The translations under genes and the position numbers were made by a program. Under the pieces are notes generated by a model. That model did not search any database and was not told the DNA's origin. It saw only the letters and a list, made by a program, of their open reading frames with translations. A stretch of 64,000 bases of DNA, taken from Argopecten irradians. Taxonomy: Eukaryota > Mollusca > Bivalvia > Pectinida > Pectinidae. Below are positions 26,004 to 63,298 of the stretch, piece by piece. Numbering within the stretch: the stretch's first letter is position 1; every line of letters starts with the position of its first letter. The stretch covers positions 32,551,331 to 32,615,330 of the forward strand of contig NC_091143.1 of NCBI RefSeq assembly GCF_041381155.1, in the 5' to 3' direction.

Positions 26004-29000
26004 TTAGCTAGTGAGAATCTCGGCTCCTTCATCAGTTATAAGAATTGTATGTTCAAATTGGGCTGAGCGACCACCATCTTTAGAAATACACGTCCAGCCA
26101 TCTTTTAACACAGTGAAGGCTGTTTCTCCCTCGCACACAAGTGGCTCTGCAATGAAAGGATATAAAGTAGTCACTATAGGTAAAACTATTGGGTTTTAAA
26201 ATGATCAAAAACTATGTAAAAAACAGTCTTATGAGTAATACTCATCTACAACCTTTAATTGTTTTCTTAAGTAAGCAAGAGTCATCCCATTGTTGTAATG
26301 TATAAATCTAACACTATTTTACAATGCAATCTACCTATTGTGAAAGTCATCCCATGTTGTAATGTATAGATCTAACACAATACACTTTTTTCTTACCTAT
26401 TGTGAAAGTCATCCCAAGTTGTAATGTATAGATCTAACAATACACTTTTTTCTTACCTATTGTAAAAGTCATCCCAAGTTGTAATGTATAGATCTAACAA
26501 TACACTTTTTTCTTTCCTATTGTAAAAGTCATCCCAGGTTGTAATGTATAGATCTAACAATACACTTTTTTCTTACCTATTGTAAAAGTCATCCCAAGTT
26601 GTAATGTATAGATCTAACAATACACTTTTTTCTTACCTATTGTAAAAGTCATCCCAAGTTGTAATGTATAGATCTAACAATACACTTTTTTCTTACCTAT
26701 TGTAAAAGTCATCCCAGGTTGTAATGTATAGATCTAACAATACACTTTTTTCTTTCCTATTGTAAAAGTCATCCCAAGTTGTAATGTATAGATCTAACAA
26801 TACACTTTTTTCTTTCCTATTGTAAAAGTCATCCCAAGTTGTAATGTATAGATCTAACAATATACTGTAATCTTACCTATTGTAAAAGTCATCCCAGGTT
26901 GCATTAAGACTTCTTCATCTGGTTCGTGTGCTGAGAAATCATAATCAAAAGAACATTTTTAATTTCTGTTTCTGTCTCTTGAATTAATTCTAGTCATTTT
27001 TGTATCAATTAGATTTTATGTAAGTAAGCATGCATGTACATTTTGATTGGTTATCTAAGGGAATAACTATTTATGTTCTAAAAACAATACTTGTATTTCT
27101 CAAAAAGACTGCATAGTTAATATAATATATTGTTTTTCAAATGAACTTTGGTAAGTTATATGTGTAGTGACAGTACCCTGGTAAGTTATATGTGTAGTGA
27201 CAGCACCCTGGTAAGTTATATGTGTAGTGACAGTACCCTGGTAAGTTATATGTGTAGTGATAGTACCCTGGTAAGTTATATGTGTAGTGACCTTACCCTG
27301 GTAGTTATATGTTGTAGTGACAGTACCCTGGTAAGTTATATGTTGTAGTGACAGTACCCTGGTAAGTTATATGTTGTAGTGACAGTACCCTGGGTAAGTG
27401 TAGTGACAGTACCTGTGTATATGTGTAGTGACAGTACCCTGGTAAGTTATATGTTGTAGTGACAGTACCCTGGTAAGTTATATTGTAGTGTGTAGTGTTA
27501 CAGTACCCTGGTAAGTTATATGTTGTAGTGACAGTACCCTGGTAAGTTATATGTTGTAGTGACAGTACCCTGGTAAGTTATATGTTGTAGTGACAGTACC
27601 CTGGTAAGTTATATGTTGTAGTGACAGTACCCTGGTAAGTTATATGTGTGTGTAGTGACAGTACCCTGGTAAGTTATATGTGTAGTGACAGTACCCTGGT
27701 AAGTTATATGTGTAGTGACAGTACCCTGGTAAGTTATATGTTGTAGTGACAGTACCCTGGTAAGTTATATGTGTGTAGTGACAGTACCCTGGTAAGTTAT
27801 ATGTTGTAGTGACAGTACCCTGGTAAGTTATATGTGTAGTGACAGTACCCTGGTAAGTTATATGTGTAGTGACAGTACCCTGGTAAGTTATATGTTGTAG
27901 TGACAGTACCCTGGTAAGTTATATGTGTAGTGACAGTACCCTGGTAAGTTATATTGTGTAGTGACAGTACCCTGGTAAGTTATATGTGTAGTGACAGTAC
28001 CCTGGTAAGTTATATGTTAGTAGTAGTGACAGTACCCTGGTAAGTTATATGTTGTAGTGACAGTACCCTGGTAAGTTATATGTGTAGTGACAGTACCCTG
28101 GTAAGTTATATGTTGTAGTGACAGTACCCTGGTAAGTTATATGTTGTAGTGACAGTACCCTGGTAAGTTATATGTGTAGTGACAGTACCCTGGTAAGTTA
28201 TATGTGTAGTGACAGTACCCTGGTAAGTTATATGTTGTAGTGACAGTACCCTGGTAAGTTATATGTGTAGTGACAGTACCCTGGTAAGTTATATGTTGTA
28301 GTGACAGTACCCTGGTAAGTTATATGTTGTAGTGACAGTACCCTGGTAAGTTATATGTTGTAGTGACAGTACCCTGGTAAGTTATATGTTGTAGTGACAG
28401 TACCCTGGTAAGTTATATGTGTGTAGTGACAGTACCCTGTAAGTTATATGTGTAGTGACAGTACCCTGGTAAGTTATATGTTGTAGTGACAGTACCCTGG
28501 TAAGTTATATGTTGTAGTGACAGTACCCTGGTAAGTTATATGTTGTAGTGACAGTACCCTGGTAAGTATATGTGTAGTGACAGTACCCTGGTAAGTTATA
28601 TGTTGTAGTGACAGTACCCTGGTAAGTTATATGTTGTAGTGACAGTACCCTGGTAAGTTATATGTGTAGTGACAGTACCCTGGTAAGTTATATGTTGTAG
28701 TGACAGTACCCTGGTAAGTTATATGTTGTAGTGACAGTACCCTGGTAAGTTATATGTTGTAGTGACAGTACCCTGGTAAGTTATATGTTGTAGTGACAGT
28801 ACCCTGGTAAGTTATATGTTGTAGTGACAGTACCCTGGTAAGTTATATGTGTAGTGACAGTACCCTGGTAAGTTATATGTTGTAGTGACAGTACCCTGGT
28901 AAGTTATATGTGTAGTGACAGTACCCTGGTAAGTTATATGTTGTAGTGACAGTACCCTGGTAAGTTATATGTGTAGTGACAGTACCCTGGTAAGTTATAT

Positions 29001-32000
29001 GTGTAGTGACAGTACCCTGGTAAGTTATATGTTGTAGTGACAGTACCCTGGTAGTTATATGTGTAGTGACAGTACCCTGGTAAGTGTAGTGACAGTACCC
29101 TGGTAAGTTATATGTTGTAGTGACAGTACCCTGGTAAGTTATATGTTGTAGTGACAGTACCCTGGTAAGTTATATGTGTAGTGACAGTACCCTGGTAAGT
29201 TATATGTTGTAGTGACAGTACCCTGGTAAGTTATATGTTGTAGTGACAGTACCCTGGTAAGTTATATGTGTAGTGACAGTACCCTGGTAAGTTATATGTG
29301 TAGTGACAGTACCCTGGTAAGTTATATGTGTAGTGACAGTACCCTGTGTGTAGTGACGTACCTGGTAAGTTATATGTTGTAGTGACAGTACCCTGGTAAG
29401 TTATGTGTTGTAGTGACAGTTACCCTGGTAAGTTATATGTTGTAGTGACAGTACCCTGGTAAGTTTTATGTGTAGTGACAGTACCCTGGTAAGTTATATG
29501 TGTAGTGACAGTACCCTGGTAAGTTATTTGTTGTAGTGACAGTACCCTGGTAAGTTATATGTTGTAGTGACAGTAACCTGGTAAGTTATACTTAGTTGTA
29601 TTGACATTAATACCTACCAACATGATGAATAACGTCTGGTGGACCATGGAAGTATGTGCCGATTCCATGCCCTAAAATCTGTGGTACAACTGAAAACCCT
29701 TCTGACGCAGCAACCTCGCTTTAATACAAAATGATGTAAAATTAAAATAATGTGGTCACACTGCTCAGCCTTATATAATACAGAACAAATATATAATTAG
29801 TTTGGTTATTCCACGAATATGATGAAACTCAAAATAGATAACGCAAAACTCAATTTCTGATTTTCTTCTACCAGGTAACCAGAACTATTTTCAGTAAAGC
29901 GTTTGCTGAAACAATTTTGATATTTTTAAACACTCAGTCACCATGATCCCTCAGCAGGGCTTGCAATAGATTGTCGTCTGATATTTATAGTAACTGCTCA
30001 TTGCCCAGGACTTGACTCACCTTATTGCATCTCCAATGGCACTCATTGGCTGTCCTGGTCCACACACACTAATTCCAGCATCTCGACATTGTCTTGCCAC
30101 ATCAACTAAATGTTTACCATCCTCATCTACGTTTCCAACAAGATAGGTTTCTGATACATCACCATGGTAACCATCCAAATATATCTGGAAAAAATCAATA
30201 TTTGATCTTTTAACTTTTAATTAGATGACAGTTAGAGTATATAATTACTTTTGATGCTTTTATTTCTTCACCCAATATGTATAACCCCATATTTAATTAT
30301 TATAACACAAATCTATTTCTAATTTCTAATGTAAATGGTTGAAGTTATATACAAGAAGAGTACCCCTGATAACCTAAACACTAGTATTTTGTCTACTGCC
30401 CAAACCTTCTGGATTGTAAATTTTCCACATTTCCGAGTTCTGCCTCCTTAGCGTATGAATGATTATATCTAATCCTCCATATCTCTGTCCAAACCAAGTT
30501 GTCCAGGCTGTCAATATCTGGATTATTACGGGACTACTGTACATTATTCTTAAGACCTGCTGAATTCCATGCTACCGATCCCAGAGTAAGACAATTAAAG
30601 GATATATTGAAGAGACCAAACATCAAATGATAAACACATTTAGTAATGGTATAAAGTCCTTACCTGGTACCTAAATAATGGTATACAGTCCATGCCTGGT
30701 ACAAGTAATAGTATACAGTCCATACCTGGTACAAGTAATGGTATACAGTCCAAACCTAGTACCTAAAGTGATTTATACAGTCTACATCTGGTACCTTAGT
30801 AATGGTATACAGTCCAATATTCTGACTATATAATTATATTCTCTTATCAGAAGTGTGATGGAAGGAAATTTGAATAATTTTAAAAGGCATTTTCTTCTTT
30901 TTTTTTTTTGAAAATTTGTTTTCGTTGAGAAAATACTTACTGTTATATCAACGTTGATAATGTCTCCATCCGACAGAGGTCGAAGGTCAGGAATCCCGTG
31001 AATCATTACATTGTTTACCGATGTACATATAGATTTATAATAAACGTTGTAGAACAGAGGAGATGGGTAACAGTTATTTTCAATACACATCTCATGCGCA
31101 AATTCATCCAGTTCATCTGTAGTCACTCCAACCTGTGCAAAATAATTCAATGTTTCAATTAGTAATTTGAATGTTAAAAACACCAAAAGTAACTAGAAAC
31201 AAGTGTACATTCTTTTTATTTACTGTAAAAAGGACACAGATGTATATTTCAAACAATATTTATGATATGACAAATGAAATATATCATCACTATCGTGGGT
31301 ATGTTACACATGAAAAAGTGTACATGATGTACCTGTATTTGTTCAGCAGTTGCATCGAGAATTGTTCTTGCAAGTTTACAGGAGTTTCTCATTTTTACAA
31401 TTTGTTCTTCATTTTTTAGCTCAAGTTTCTCTTTCTTGCCGACTGTGGGGTTCTCAACATATGATGGTATAGGTATACGATCTCTGGGGAAATCTCTCAG
31501 AGGTGTACAATCAACAGGGCGTACAAGTTTGAACTTTCTCCTGGAATAGTGGAACTTTGAAACTTCTCCCTCTGGTTTGACCTCCAATGTTGTGCAGTAT
31601 TTAGCGCCATTATTCACAAAACCTCTGCAGGATAACAATAACCTTCCAACTGAAACAAAAATAATCTTACAATATATATTTTAAAATTCTTTGAAGCTTT
31701 GGAGACATAAGATGTAGAAGGTCTCGATCAGGTGGATTACCTGCAACCAGGTACATTTTTGTACGTCGCTTGGTAGAGCATATGACCAGTGTTCGAAGAT
31801 CCCTGCCCTTATCACATAATCTGGCGTCTACCATTTTCTATTAATTCAAAAGACTTGGTGCCTGACCAAACCCATCCTTGATACTCCAGGGGTTCCTATC
31901 ACTTACGATCTCTACACCCCTGGACTATCTCATAGTGAAATTGAAGGCAGTTCAGCGGAAAATATTTGACCAATCACAGACCAGCAAAGATTTCCTTTTG

Positions 32001-49023: not shown

Positions 49024-52000
49024 GTGTGTTTCCACGTGCGATGTTTGGTGTACTGTGGCCTTGTGGTGCACCGTATCAGTATGCTGTGTTACGAAATCCG
49101 TGTCATATATGCGGCTCCCGCCCGCCCTTTGTCTATGGTCCGGCATTTCTTTAGTACCGTGGAGTATAAGCTCAACGGCCTTCACCTTTCCAAAATTGTT
49201 CCCGTGTTTCTGACAACAGTATAATTAACATCTGTTAACAACCATGTATACGTGTATTTGCTGCCAATCTGACATGGTTGTAGATATCATCAATATTTAC
49301 TGGATAATGTTCATGAGAAGATGTCATAATGGTGAAAAAGTCTTGAATACAATCAATGCGGGATGAATTCATGCCCTGTTTCTTTATCATTTACCATCTA
49401 TCATGACCTTGGTTTGTTATATGTAATTTTCGTCTAAAGCTGCTGCGTTCTAAATTATGATTCATTTGGAACACTTCAAATCCGGATGATCCGTGTTAAA
49501 GCCAAAACTAAAGAAAAGATATATTTTACTTGTTACTAAGTATTCGATCTTTTTGACTTGATAAAATTTGTTGAATGAAAACAGCCAAAACTGCCTTTAA
49601 AGACCATCAAAGGAACTATTCTGTATAGGCAGTAACAGACTATTCTACTATAGCGTTCTACCTCGTCTTTGATGGTCAGTTTCCACAGACCAGTTGGGTC
49701 CTCTCCCCATGACTGCACGGACATAAATGTCCAGTTTTGGAATCCGGCTGATGACCTGTCCATGGACCGTTCCGACAGTAGCATTGTCTCCATACCTACG
49801 GGTGTGGCATAGTAGTAATATTAGTCAGAGATATACAACAGTAGTACTGTCTCCATACCTACAGATGTGGTACAGTGGTAATATTAGTCAGAGATATACA
49901 ACAGTAGTACTGTCTCCATACCTACAGATGTGGTACAGTGGTAATATTAGTCAGAGATATACAACAGTAGTACTGTCTCCATACCTACAGATGTGGTACA
50001 GTGGTAATATTAGTCAGAGATATACAACAGTAGTACTGTCTCCATACCTACAGATGTGGTACAGTGGTAATATTAGTCAGAGATATACAACAGTAGTACT
50101 GTCTCCATACCTACAGATGTGGTACAGTGGTAATATTAGTCAGAGATATACAACAGTAGTACTGTCCATACCTACAGAGTGGTACAGTGGTAATATAGTC
50201 AGAGATATACAACGTAGTACTGTCTCCATACCTACAGATGTGGTACAGTGGTAATATTAGTCAGAGATATACAACAGTAGTACTGTCTCCATACCTACAG
50301 ATGTGGTACAGTGGTAATATTAGTCAGAGATATACAACAGTAGTACTGTCTCCATACCTACAGATGTGGTACAGTGGTAATATTAGTCAGAGATATACAA
50401 CAGTAGTACTGTCTCCATACCTACAGATGTGGTACAGTGGTAATATTAGTCAGAGATATACAACAGTAGTACTGTCTCCATACCTACAGATGTGGTACAG
50501 TGGTATATATTAGTCAGAGATATACAACAGTAGTACTGTCTCCATACCTACAGATGTGGTACAGTGGTAATATTAGTCAGAGATATACAACAGTAGTACT
50601 GTCTCCATACCTACAGATGTGGTACAGTGGTAATATTAGTCAGATATATACAACAGTAGTACTGTCTCCATACCTACAGATGTGGTACAGTGGTAATATT
50701 AGGAGATATACAACAGTAGTACTGTCTCCATACCTACAGATGTGGTACAGTGGTAATATTAGTCAGAGATATACAACAGTAGTACTGTCTCCATACCTAC
50801 AGATGTGGTACAGTGGTAATATTAGTCAGAGATATACAACAGTAGTACTGTCTCCATACCTACAGATGTGGTACAGTGGTAATATTAGTCAGAGATATAC
50901 AACAGTAGTACTGTCTCCATACCTACAGATGTGGTACAGTTGTATTATTAGTCAGAGATATACAACAATAGTAGAATTATCACTTTACCTACAGATACAG
51001 TATGTCACACCATTACAATAAGCCAGAGACATTCAACAATATCCATCCTGTGTACCCAAATTTTATAAATCATATTCATCTGTGTGATACAGTAGTTCAT
51101 TAATTGTAGTTAGGTATTTGAATATAAAACCCACTATTCGAAACAGGAATAAGAAAAACAAAGTGCATAAGTACCGGCATCTAGGTTCATTCCGGTGAGG
51201 AAGGTAAACTTAAGTCAGTCTATAACTAACGTATATAACATGGTATCAGGGATTGAGTTTCACAGGAGTACTATCAACGACGACTAATCACTATCCTTTG
51301 TTTAGAAACCTTGTGGTACAAAGGTATAAATCTTTTATAGTTAACAAATTTATCCCAGATACTACTTAATACTATATTTTCAACATAACACTGCTGATTT
51401 TCAGTCATACCAGACACACTGCATAGTGACGAAGTTGACATAGGCAACATACAACATTAGGAAGATATTGTTGATAATTAAACCGAGACTTACCACTTGG
51501 TGACGTTAGACTAATATGGAGATCACCCCTCCTGGAATAGTCCATGGTGATCCGCATCTGAATATGTTCAAGGTAATTGACCTCATTGGCCTGTCCTTTA
51601 CATCCACTTGTGGTCATGTCGATGTCCAGCCTATGACCACTGGACAATGATCTAGTAAAAGCCATACCGAATGAAATCATATGATGTGTGCGAAACCTTT
51701 ATTGAATGGAGACTTACAAAACAACACACATTCCATGCTCTACATCCAAATTACATCTATTAGCAATGTAAAATTTATGTTATTTACACATTGTGCATGG
51801 GAAAATATTGATGTATATATATACATGGACTAACGAATTATAACAATGATAATGCTTAAACATTCACATTGCCTTCCATATTCTGGTATTTCCATATCAA
51901 ACAACTCCACAGTGAATTGATTTCTCGATTCAAAGTCAAATAATCCATTGTACTTTCAGTTAATATTGTTGGAAATTATCCAATGTGTAAAACTCTAAAC

Positions 52001-58000: not shown

Positions 58001-60619
58001 ATTCTATTTTCTATAATTATTTAGGCTACATGTCATGTGTTTGGTTGTATTCGTGTCTTGATAATGAGGTGTCTTGCATAGTTTGTCTACATGGTTAGTA
58101 TTACTACAGTACCATTTACACACATATGATTATATGAGGTTAGCTTTCAAAATTACAAAGAATGCGAGCCTAAACAACTTGATACAGGCATCTAATACTC
58201 ACGTAGTTCTGCGCTAAGTCCGTATGGTTGTGTTCAATACCTGGACAACAAATTAATCGATATCTTTATTTTCATAACAATCAAGTTTAGTGTTTAATCA
58301 TTGCTGTCACTATTTCTTTTTATTTTTATCGGGGCATGAAAACAAATTTGTTTGTAAACTGTGTGAATCTGCGTAACGGATTCTCACAAAAATTTGTGAA
58401 TAATTTATTTCATACCCCGATTTTTTTTTTCTAATTATGTGACATTAATGCTTAATTTTGTTATCTATTTGATAAAATAAAGTATGTTGAAATGTACCAT
58501 TCTAGTGATTTTTCAAGGGATTCTTTTCCGAGTCAATACGCAACGTCAATGTCGCTATTTTGGCGTCACCATAACGTCGGTGTTTCGGGTCATTCTCGAT
58601 TTTTTTTTCATAGTTATATAAAAAAGTATTGGCCAGTCAGAAAGCCAGTTTTGGTATGAAACCCAAGAAAAAATAATTATATTTCTCTGTGAAAAAACCG
58701 CCTCTCTGTCGTGGAAAGTAAAAGTCAGTACAAATTCGCGAAGATGAACACTTGCAGATTTGAAATTTGTTTATATTGATTAACAGAAACAAACTTTACT
58801 TGCAAAATTTGCGAAAGGAAGTCTCACACAAAACAACTGTTATTTACAGTAAAGCAGATATGAAATACGGAATTGATTATATATAGGTATAAAAAGGAAA
58901 AAAAACTAATATGTTTTGTCCTTTTTTATCACCAATCATAATATAATTTCACTTTCTTTATTATACAACTGGAGATCTATACAAAAAGTAGGGCGAATTA
59001 ACCTCATAACCGGCATATTTCGTTACAAGTCATACGAGAAAATGTCAAATCAAAACTACTCTTTCGTTTATGTCTGTGATATAGTATATCATATCGGTCT
59101 AACGCTTTATTTGATAAAGTACCTTTTGTCTCATTTAACAACTTTTAAATTGCCCGCTATTCAGAAAACGTCGGCTTATTTTTGAGATAATTTCACTGTA
59201 AGAAATCCAAGGCTTACTTTCAAGTGCAGCCTATTTTTAAAGTGGGCATATTTTAAAGATAAATTTCACTATAAGCAATCCAAGGCTTATTTCAAGACCG
59301 GCCTATTTTCGTTTCAGACTTATCATCGAGATTTTAGGGTATAGTTGTTATTGTAAACATACTTAATTCCGCGTGCGATTTATTTTAGTGTATCATATTA
59401 CTATATTACGCGTACAATAAAATTCGTATATTATACGCGAGCGGTTGGAATTTGTTTAATCACTTCGCTCGAAAATGACAATTGCAATACAAGTTTTAAA
59501 CAGTAAATCGAGAACTAAATCATCGCGAAATGTGAAAAGTAAAATGTAAATGAAATGTGAAATGAATTCGACGTGAAAGTAAGTTTGTTGATAATATATA
59601 CATGTTTAAAAAAATAGCAAAACGAGAAGCGTACCGTCGTCGAGGACAGTGATGACAACGCCCTTTCCGGTGATGCCCTGGTTCCACACGGGGATAATAT
59701 GGAGGTCATACTTAGGCTTTGTTAGGTCATGGGTTTTATCTTTCTGTATTAATGTAAATACATTATAAATGAACCATTATAGATAATGATACATGGCAAT
59801 AGATTGATTACTTACACTAAATGTTTTCCAAAATACTATAGCCAAAATCATCATACATCGACTATACAATGCATTGTGTAGTGCGGTTTTATTGATTTTC
59901 CATCATTGCTGCATTTTGCTCCTAATGTCAGATAAAGATACTTACAATGATAATGTATATTATCATTAAAACGGATACATGTATATGTAGCTGTAACTAT
60001 CACCGTTATAAAACAGTATCGTGTAAAGAACTGTGATTTAGCTTCTTAATGTTTTCTTCTTTTGGACGCATTTTCTGAATTGCTATTTTGCTGGTTTGAA
60101 ATAATTCCACGTATCAAGATATTTGGCATTTTGTTGTTATTTTCGATAGGTTTTATTTTTTTAGTCTCCGTTATAGGTGGGCTTATTTTACGATGTATGT
60201 TTTTACTTAATGGTGAGATGTGGGGAGATAACAATATGAAATTTGATGTCATCTTTAAAAATTGATGACGTCATCAAAATAAATGCGTTTATCTAAATTA
60301 TTCTTCAGGTATTTTGCTATACATGTACGTTGATAAATATACCATCGTTTATAACAATGAATTTGTGGTTCTTAAACATCCCATCAATGTACATATGTAT
60401 ATATCATTCTATTTATCTGTATTTAATGTATCTCTTTACAAATAATGTCAGATACTAAAACATTACGTCATTTTACGTCATACTCACTATGTACCACTGC
60501 TTCGTCCACAGAGGATCATTAAACTCCATATGGATGTACTGTCTCTCTTCACGTTCCCGTTCATCCGTGACTTCTCGTTTGGATCGAGATTTGGAAACCT
60601 GTTGTTCAGCCCAGTTTAC
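49024..60619 (-). CDS. PCSK1: Prohormone convertase 1/3 (kexin-type subtilisin protease), partial
   Basis: Cleaves prohormones at paired basic residues in the regulated secretory pathway. Minus-strand exons: 60488-60619, 59635-59743, 58203-58240, 57090-57166, 56686-56774, 54486-54658, 53907-54119, 52961-53061, 52329-52568, 51494-51651, 49662-49795, 49024-49209. They sum to 1650 nt, 550 in-frame codons, with GT-AG junctions and matching phases. In order: autocleavage site KSRSKR, mature start EVTDERE, catalytic Asp in VVITVLDDG, His in [25 protein letters not shown], oxyanion Asn in YVWASGNGG, Ser in [13 protein letters not shown]. The P domain follows with [17 protein letters not shown] (RRGDL intact), [15 protein letters not shown] and [23 protein letters not shown] and [12 protein letters not shown] favour PC1/3 over furin or PC2. 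The signal peptide and most of the prodomain lie beyond 64000; the C-terminal tail after 49024 is not found. Donors at 54485 (GTCAGC) and 49661 (GTAGAA) are weak. Confidence 0.95.
49772..50995. repeat. 63-bp minisatellite derived from a PCSK1 intron-exon junction
   Basis: About 19 units of 63 bp abut and overlap the start of the PCSK1 exon 49662-49795. Read on the minus strand, every unit contains ACCACATCTGTAG followed by GTATGGAGACAGTACTACTG. This is a copy of the real 3' splice site and of about the first 24 nt of the exon (GTATGGAGACAATGCTACTG). The long plus-strand frame with a 21-residue period is an artefact, since 63 is divisible by three. Confidence 0.96.
55941..56401. mobile_element. 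MITE family M2, copy 2, with internal duplication
   Basis: Same termini as 44463-44807. It is about 115 bp longer because the segment with GAAAGCGAGGCTGCGTGGAA occurs twice (about 56085 and 56200). It lies in the PCSK1 intron between exons 56686 and 54658. Confidence 0.9.
57797..57929. repeat. Two (CA)n(TA)n microsatellites
   Basis: CA runs followed by TA runs at about 57797-57821 and 57887-57927, about 65 bp apart, in a PCSK1 intron. Confidence 0.93.
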
Positions 60620-62085: not shown

Positions 62086-62446
62086 TCAATCCAAGGCTTA
62101 TTTCAAGACCGGCCTATTTTCGTTTCAGACTTATCATCGAGATTTTAGGGTATAGTAGTTATTGTAAACATACTTAATTCCGCGTGCGATTTATTTTAGT
62201 GTATCATATTACTATATTACGCGTACAATAAAATTCGTATATTATACGCGAGCGGTTGGAATTTGTTTAATCACTTCGCTCGAAAATGACAATTGCAATA
62301 CAAGTTTTAAACAGTAAATCGAGAACTAAATCATCGCGAAATGTGAAATGTAAAATGTAAATGAAATGTGAAATGAATTCGACGTGAAAATAAGTTTGTT
62401 GATAATATATACATGTTTAAAAAAAATAGCAAAACGAGAAGCGTAC

Positions 62447-62557
62447 CGTCGTCGAGGACAGTGATGACAACGCCCTTTCCGGTGATGCCCTGGTTCCACA
62501 CGGGGATATAATATGGAGGTCATACTTAGGCTTTGTTAGGTCATGGGTTTTATCTTT
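62447..62557 (-). pseudogene. PCSK1: Duplicate PCSK1 exon (catalytic Asp exon) with 2-bp insertion
   Basis: Copy of exon 59635-59743, 111 nt instead of 109. An extra AT lies at about 62506-62509 (GGGGATATAATATGG against GGGGATAATATGG), shifting the frame upstream of the VVITVLDDG segment. Both splice sites are retained and the rest of the exon is identical. Confidence 0.9.
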
Positions 62558-63298
62558 CTGTATTAATGTAAATACATTATAAATTAACCATTATAGATAA
62601 TGATACATGGCAATAGATTGATTACTATAACACTAAATGTTTTCCAAAATACTAAAGCCAAAATCATCATACATCGACTATACAATGCATTGTGTAGTGC
62701 GGTTTTACTGATTTTCCATCATTGCTGCATTTTGCTCCTTATGTCCGATACAGATACTTACAATGAGAATGTATATTATCATTAAAACGGATACATGTAT
62801 ATGTAGCTGTAACTATCACCGTTATAAAAACAGTATCGTGTAAAGAACTGTGATTTAGCTTCTTAATGTTTTCTTCTTTTGGACGCATTTTCTGAATTGC
62901 AATTTTGCTGGTTTGAAATAATTCCACGTATCAAGATATTTGGCATTTTGTTGTTATTTTCGATAGGTTTTATTTTTCTAGTCTCCGTTATAGGTGGGCT
63001 TATTTTACGATGTATGTTTTTACTTAATGGTGAGATGTGGGGAGATAACAATATGAAGTTTGATGTCATCTTTAAAAATTGATGACGTCATCACAATAAA
63101 TGCGTTTATCTAAATTATTCTTCAGGTATTTTGCTATACATGATAAATATACCATCGTTTATAACAATGAATTTGTGGTTCTTAAAACATCCCATCAATG
63201 TACATATGTATATATCATTCTATTTATCTGTATTTAATGTATCTCTTTACAAATAATGTCAGATACTAAAACATTACGTCATTTTACGTCATACTCAC

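Follow-up and report, generated by a model that had tools for sequence, protein, structure and literature searches.

The locus described here raises the question of how a gene selects its 3' splice site when that site has been multiplied in the intron preceding it. Within the window, that is, the whole 64,000-nucleotide stretch of DNA that was analysed, a minisatellite in a likely PCSK1-like gene repeats the boundary between an intron and a P-domain exon (Table 1). The exons flanking this intron encode a P domain (PF01483, 86.3 bits), and joining of 51494, the last base of the upstream exon, to 49795 resulted in a gapless alignment of 85 residues to furin across the junction (query 3–87, chain 361–445), by which 49795 is supported indirectly as the putative real acceptor. 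The donor of the upstream exon reads GTG^GTAAGT, the caret marking the splice junction here and below, and GTAGAA lies directly 3' of 49662 in transcript orientation. As the P domain and subtilisin catalytic exons are both present, the host gene qualifies as a proprotein convertase; its further exons carry putative convertase catalytic motifs, and the name PC1/3 (PCSK1) is likely from comparison with vertebrate PC1/3 sequences. One PCSK1-like exon is present twice, at 59606–59776 and 62417–62590, roughly 2.8 kb apart and within an apparent longer direct duplication, and in the second copy the exon peptide was matched in two frames.

Table 1. Positions in the window of the exons, intron, arrays and decoy acceptors (for decoys, the first base after AG).
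Feature	Position	Strand	Basis or remark
P-domain second half, exon (ends ...TIKDE), 134 nt	49662..49795	-	furin alignment, PF01483
Upstream P-domain exon, matched part (DIDMTTSGC...LTSPSG)	51494..51626	-	5' end left unfixed
Intron with the array at its 3' end, 1698 nt	49796..51493	-	
63-bp minisatellite, ~19 copies	49775..50973	-	TRF and sequence reading
Nearest decoy	49858	-	
Decoys 2–10	49921, 49984, 50047, 50110, 50171, 50231, 50294, 50357, 50420	-	
Decoys 11–19	50483, 50547, 50610, 50673, 50733, 50796, 50859, 50922, 50988	-	
Degenerate outermost copy around 50988 (TACTGTATCTGTAG^GTAAAGTG)	50966..51028	-	
60-bp donor-side array, METAP1-like gene	26332..26901	-	TRF, sequence reading; gene by TIGR00500/PF00557

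Analysis of the array with TRF returned a period of 63, 19.1 copies and 97% matches. The unit consists of 40 nt of intron end, containing CTGACTAAT with CTGTAG at its end, followed by 23 nt of exon start (GTATGGAGAC...), and the array thus multiplies the 3' splice site of the gene, as the sequence-only reading had proposed. In transcript orientation 20 TAG^GTA sites were counted, namely the true one, with its AG at 49797–49796 and exon base 1 at 49795 in the exon-proximal copy, and 19 decoys (49858 to 50988); the decoys all lie upstream of 49795, and the true acceptor is, as first read, the last in transcript order. The same reading had each unit copying both the acceptor and the start of the exon. 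This was correct for TAG^GTA, kept by all 19 upstream units, and nearly so for GTATGG, which is found in 18 of them, the most upstream unit reading GTAAAG instead. An identical run of 63 letters, referred to here as the common unit, accounts for 12/19 units and agrees with the true boundary copy at 35/40 intron and 20/23 exon positions. When the array was subjected to 300 mononucleotide shuffles, the first 23 nt of the exon were matched at 17/23 positions at best; the likeness to the boundary is greater than chance. The exon part of the unit reads GMETVLL in frame and resembles the GTRSTLL and GTNSTLL found in two convertase paralogs, which makes the exon the likely source of the unit. While the interior of the array is homogenized, the exon-proximal and outermost copies are diverged, the latter sharing 16/23 exon-part and 12/40 intron-part positions with the true copy in an ungapped comparison. 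A search of the 846-Mb genome returned six matches, all of them inside the array, and no other copy of the locus was present among the matches returned for this one assembly; the search skips very common words, and uniqueness is therefore unproven. COX1 had no match in the assembly, and neither had the haemocyanin family, the control for which was likewise without a match.

Use of the decoys is predicted to be harmful. Of the two outcomes foreseen for decoy splicing, repeat-derived residues within the P domain or stops, truncation was borne out, as joining the upstream exon to each of the 19 decoys led to a stop within about 30 codons of the junction and every one of these stops is situated inside the array. 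The unit length had also been noted to be a multiple of three. Frame preservation by the 63-bp unit was rejected, as only the five decoys nearest the exon are in frame and frame is lost for the other 14/19 on account of indels in some units.

The strength of the sites was evaluated with small, home-made score matrices, for which six convertase genes of this genome (the host and five paralogs) supplied 42 acceptors and 41 donors, the index acceptor being omitted. On the full matrix the true acceptor scored -2.98 and the decoys -0.92 to 4.78, such that 19/19 decoys scored higher, and the true site fell under every one of the 42 references, whose leave-one-out minimum was 2.74. The decoys were themselves weak, 18/19 being under the minimum of the references. 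The best of the 20 acceptor copies (4.78) is the most upstream one, which is transcribed first, and the true acceptor is beaten as well by 16 AGs that lie elsewhere in this intron, beyond the array. As the true acceptor ranked last among the 20 copies on this matrix, intrinsic strength was ruled out as the reason for the choice of 49795; sequence alone would not pick this site.

Arrays that copy a splice boundary are already known from lancelets, and the PCSK1-like case is not a new kind of thing. The lancelet arrays, termed mirages, are minisatellite-like tandem duplications of the intron/exon boundary described for Adh3, the globins BflGb6 and BflGb9, troponin C and PGBD5 (PMC3087553, PMC3902484), the PGBD5 mirage having been added in the later report (PMC3902484). 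In the globin mirages the units carry AG/GT signals and the interiors of the clusters are homogenized while their boundaries are not (PMC3087553). The PCSK1-like array is a mirage in that it has boundary-spanning units, retained AG/GT and a homogenized interior with diverged edges, and it shares with the lancelet arrays the tandem duplication of the acceptor or donor side and the presence of AG/GT in many units. It differs in size, as BflGb6 has 6 and 3 units of 150–160 bp in two haplotypes (PMC3087553) whereas some 20 units of 63 bp are found here, and in that copy-number variation and RT-PCR were reported for the lancelet while the PCSK1-like array is known from the sequence of one assembly. 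The RT-PCR of the globin genes suggested that mirages do not disturb regular splicing (PMC3087553), and the Adh and troponin C mirages were described as yielding no aberrant mRNAs in the cases reported (PMC3902484).

Human genes offer further parallels. An intronic VNTR of ABCA7 has a 25-bp unit of which the first two bases are a splice donor; a single VNTR unit was retained at 2 ± 1%, and skipping of exon 19 rises with VNTR length (PMC5954066). There too a tandem unit repeats a splice site beside its exon, but on the donor rather than the acceptor side, and an effect of length on exon skipping has been measured. Internal tandem repeats at exon–intron boundaries of human segmental duplications, where cryptic splice sites can be activated (PMC2812944), have the boundary location and the potential for cryptic sites in common with the PCSK1-like array but are associated, in recent paralogs, with new introns as well as with alternative transcripts. 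Tandem duplications containing AG^GT have moreover been invoked in the gain of introns, in the model of Rogers (cited in PMC3087553) and in the case of a potato RdRp gene (PMC4974935); the duplication is alike, but in the PCSK1-like gene the intron pre-existed and its boundary was copied. Among the matches listed in the literature search, no paper was found that applied the term mirage to arrays outside lancelets.

A second mirage is present in the 64-kb window. It belongs to a METAP1-like gene (TIGR00500, 185.7 bits, with a match to PF00557 also) and repeats ~25 nt from the end of an exon (CAACCTGGGATGACTTTTACAATAG) together with its donor, the true donor being located after 26877. In the nine further copies the donor reads GTAAG in five, GAAAG in three and GTAGA in one. 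A large 31/61-bp array is also found in a METAP1-like intron at 27149–29590, where it begins ~20 nt past an exon and has a plus-strand unit containing GGTAAGT.

Additional boundary arrays were observed elsewhere in the same genome, where the paralog names furin-like, PC7-like and PC2-like are provisional and site counts in paralog arrays include the true site where one exists. The furin-like gene carries a 56-bp donor array with 10 GTAAG and a 38-bp acceptor array with 17 GGTTGTAG and 34 GGTTGTAC. A 22-bp donor array in the convertase at L025–L026 contains at least 98 ACAGGT, the stretch examined ending within the array. In the PC7-like gene 18 GAGGTAAG were counted in a 62-bp array, its exon being inferred from an open coding-like stretch with no query match, and in the PC2-like gene part of the P-domain exon and its donor were found as a 251-bp duplication of two copies that are more than 99% identical (L024, 7674–8174). 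Outside the convertases, of 130 kinesin matches the first 24 were taken, and 20 exons remained after three had been dropped for in-match stops and one as the neighbour of another. Among these, one (L067, 1–339, HVPYRDSKLTRIL) is preceded by copies, ~60 bp apart, of its acceptor together with the first part of the exon, and one (L061, reverse strand, NKSLSALGQ) is followed by several degenerate donor copies, such as CTTGGACAG^GTAAA. A two-copy acceptor duplication was seen at another exon of 1/18 ADH-family loci (L036, 379–538, KGDRVFTVRTDTGG), the 18 including two near-identical-looking pairs. An automatic scan flagged 7/89 exons, index included (PC 4/47, ADH 1/18, kinesin 1/20 and METAP1-like 1/4), of which the ADH case, L038, was weak by eye with ~8 exon nt only and no exact donor copy. 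The furin-like acceptor array, the degenerate donor copies at L061 and the two-copy acceptor at L036 were missed by the scan and seen by eye. Exon edges in the scans are the ends of protein matches and not annotated ends, and the kinesin exons alone were sampled independently of such arrays, as PC and METAP1-like exons were included because of the index finding and ADH because of the lancelet Adh mirage.

The recurrence of such arrays does not amount to targeting of exon edges. Of 170 edges, from 85 PC, ADH and kinesin exons with the index included, 6 were in a direct repeat, compared to 16.7% of intronic windows and to 10.5% of intronic windows within 300 nt of an exon. Repeats are thus rarer at exon edges than in intronic windows, and a targeting of the arrays to exon boundaries is unsupported. 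In the PC genes, 4/20 arrays touch an exon match where 1.44 would be expected (P = 0.05), the index case being included. A high rate of minisatellite birth together with selection against damage to exon edges would be enough.

The likely explanation, in our judgement, is that the array is a mirage in which a boundary-spanning duplication expanded, is close to neutral and is spliced at its exon-proximal copy via exon definition. Such an array would have originated from a tandem duplication across the intron/exon boundary and would have grown through unequal exchange or slippage, with the interior units becoming homogenized and the end units diverging. Exon definition would pair the exon-proximal acceptor with the exon body and the downstream donor and so lead to its choice, the decoys would be near-neutral passengers that are rarely used, and transcripts spliced to them would presumably be cleared through nonsense-mediated decay. 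Within this explanation the anatomy of the array, the copying of the boundary, the decoy scores, the stop codons and the protein-level support for the junction are established. It is the exon-proximal copy that holds the presumed true site in the PCSK1-like, METAP1-like, L025–L026, L061, L067 and both furin-like arrays, partly by construction, as the exon of those arrays was located via protein match or frame reading. The explanation is favoured by the comparable arrays at donor and acceptor boundaries of other genes in the same genome, by the regular splicing reported for lancelet mirages and the 2 ± 1% unit retention in ABCA7. Counting against it are the low score of the true acceptor and the case of ABCA7, in which a boundary VNTR can shift splicing.

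The chief alternative, which we consider unlikely, is a ratchet in which early-transcribed decoys are used, a donor (GTG^GTATGG) is regenerated by each such splice and further splicing steps along the array lead to the true acceptor, resulting in the same final mRNA. AG is directly abutted by GT in all 20 copies, as in recursive splice sites or ratchet points, where an acceptor abuts a donor as AG^GT, and resplicing at regenerated sites is known from Drosophila, where the exon junction complex keeps it in check (PMC8184009). The regenerated donor scored 6.06 and the unit as donor, AG^GTATGG, 6.26, each at the 17th percentile of the 41 donors. The array differs from recursive splice sites, however, in having ~20 copies in tandem, weak acceptors and a short intron of 1698 nt, and its use in this manner is predicted at most; a long host intron is typical, if not strictly so, for ratchet points, and one of this length has no need of a ratchet. 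The weakness of nearly all decoy acceptors against the references also argues against it, and the true exon itself begins with GTATGG, so that the final product would remain open to re-splicing. Less probable again is a more far-reaching version, in which the array would work as a splicing ratchet of ~19 consecutive zero-length exons with decoy mis-splicing mended by further splicing, a boundary minisatellite could expand freely only with AG^GT, and array length would set the delay or the yield of PCSK1 mRNA.

That RNA structure conceals the decoys and leaves the true acceptor exposed is highly improbable. Local folding gave the A of the acceptor AG an unpaired probability of 0.96 in the true copy and 0.31–0.64 in the 19 decoys, but the adjoining G, G and T of the true copy were predicted to be paired, like those of almost every decoy, and simultaneous opening of the eight junction bases had a probability close to zero, at most 0.003, in each of the 20 copies; on these models masking is mostly disfavoured. 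Selection might alternatively maintain the array because decoy splicing and decay would restrain PCSK1 output to a degree tuned by array length, a very doubtful proposition with which the stops following every decoy and the dependence of ABCA7 splicing on VNTR length (PMC5954066) would agree. Tolerated by-products are a better fit to the similar arrays in unrelated genes and to the lower frequency of repeats at exon edges than in intronic windows. A repeat collapsed or inflated during assembly deserves hardly any weight: long tandem arrays are prone to assembly errors and the copy number may be wrong, but several units have distinct substitutions and indels, and other genes carry boundary arrays as well.

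Read as mirages, boundary minisatellites may feed the gain of introns, as has been proposed for the lancelet globins (PMC3087553). They are in addition natural experiments in splice-site competition, in which near-identical sites differ mainly in position. As several such arrays exist in one genome, at acceptors as well as donors and with intact as well as broken decoys, the contributions of position and strength to the choice of splice site can be tested.
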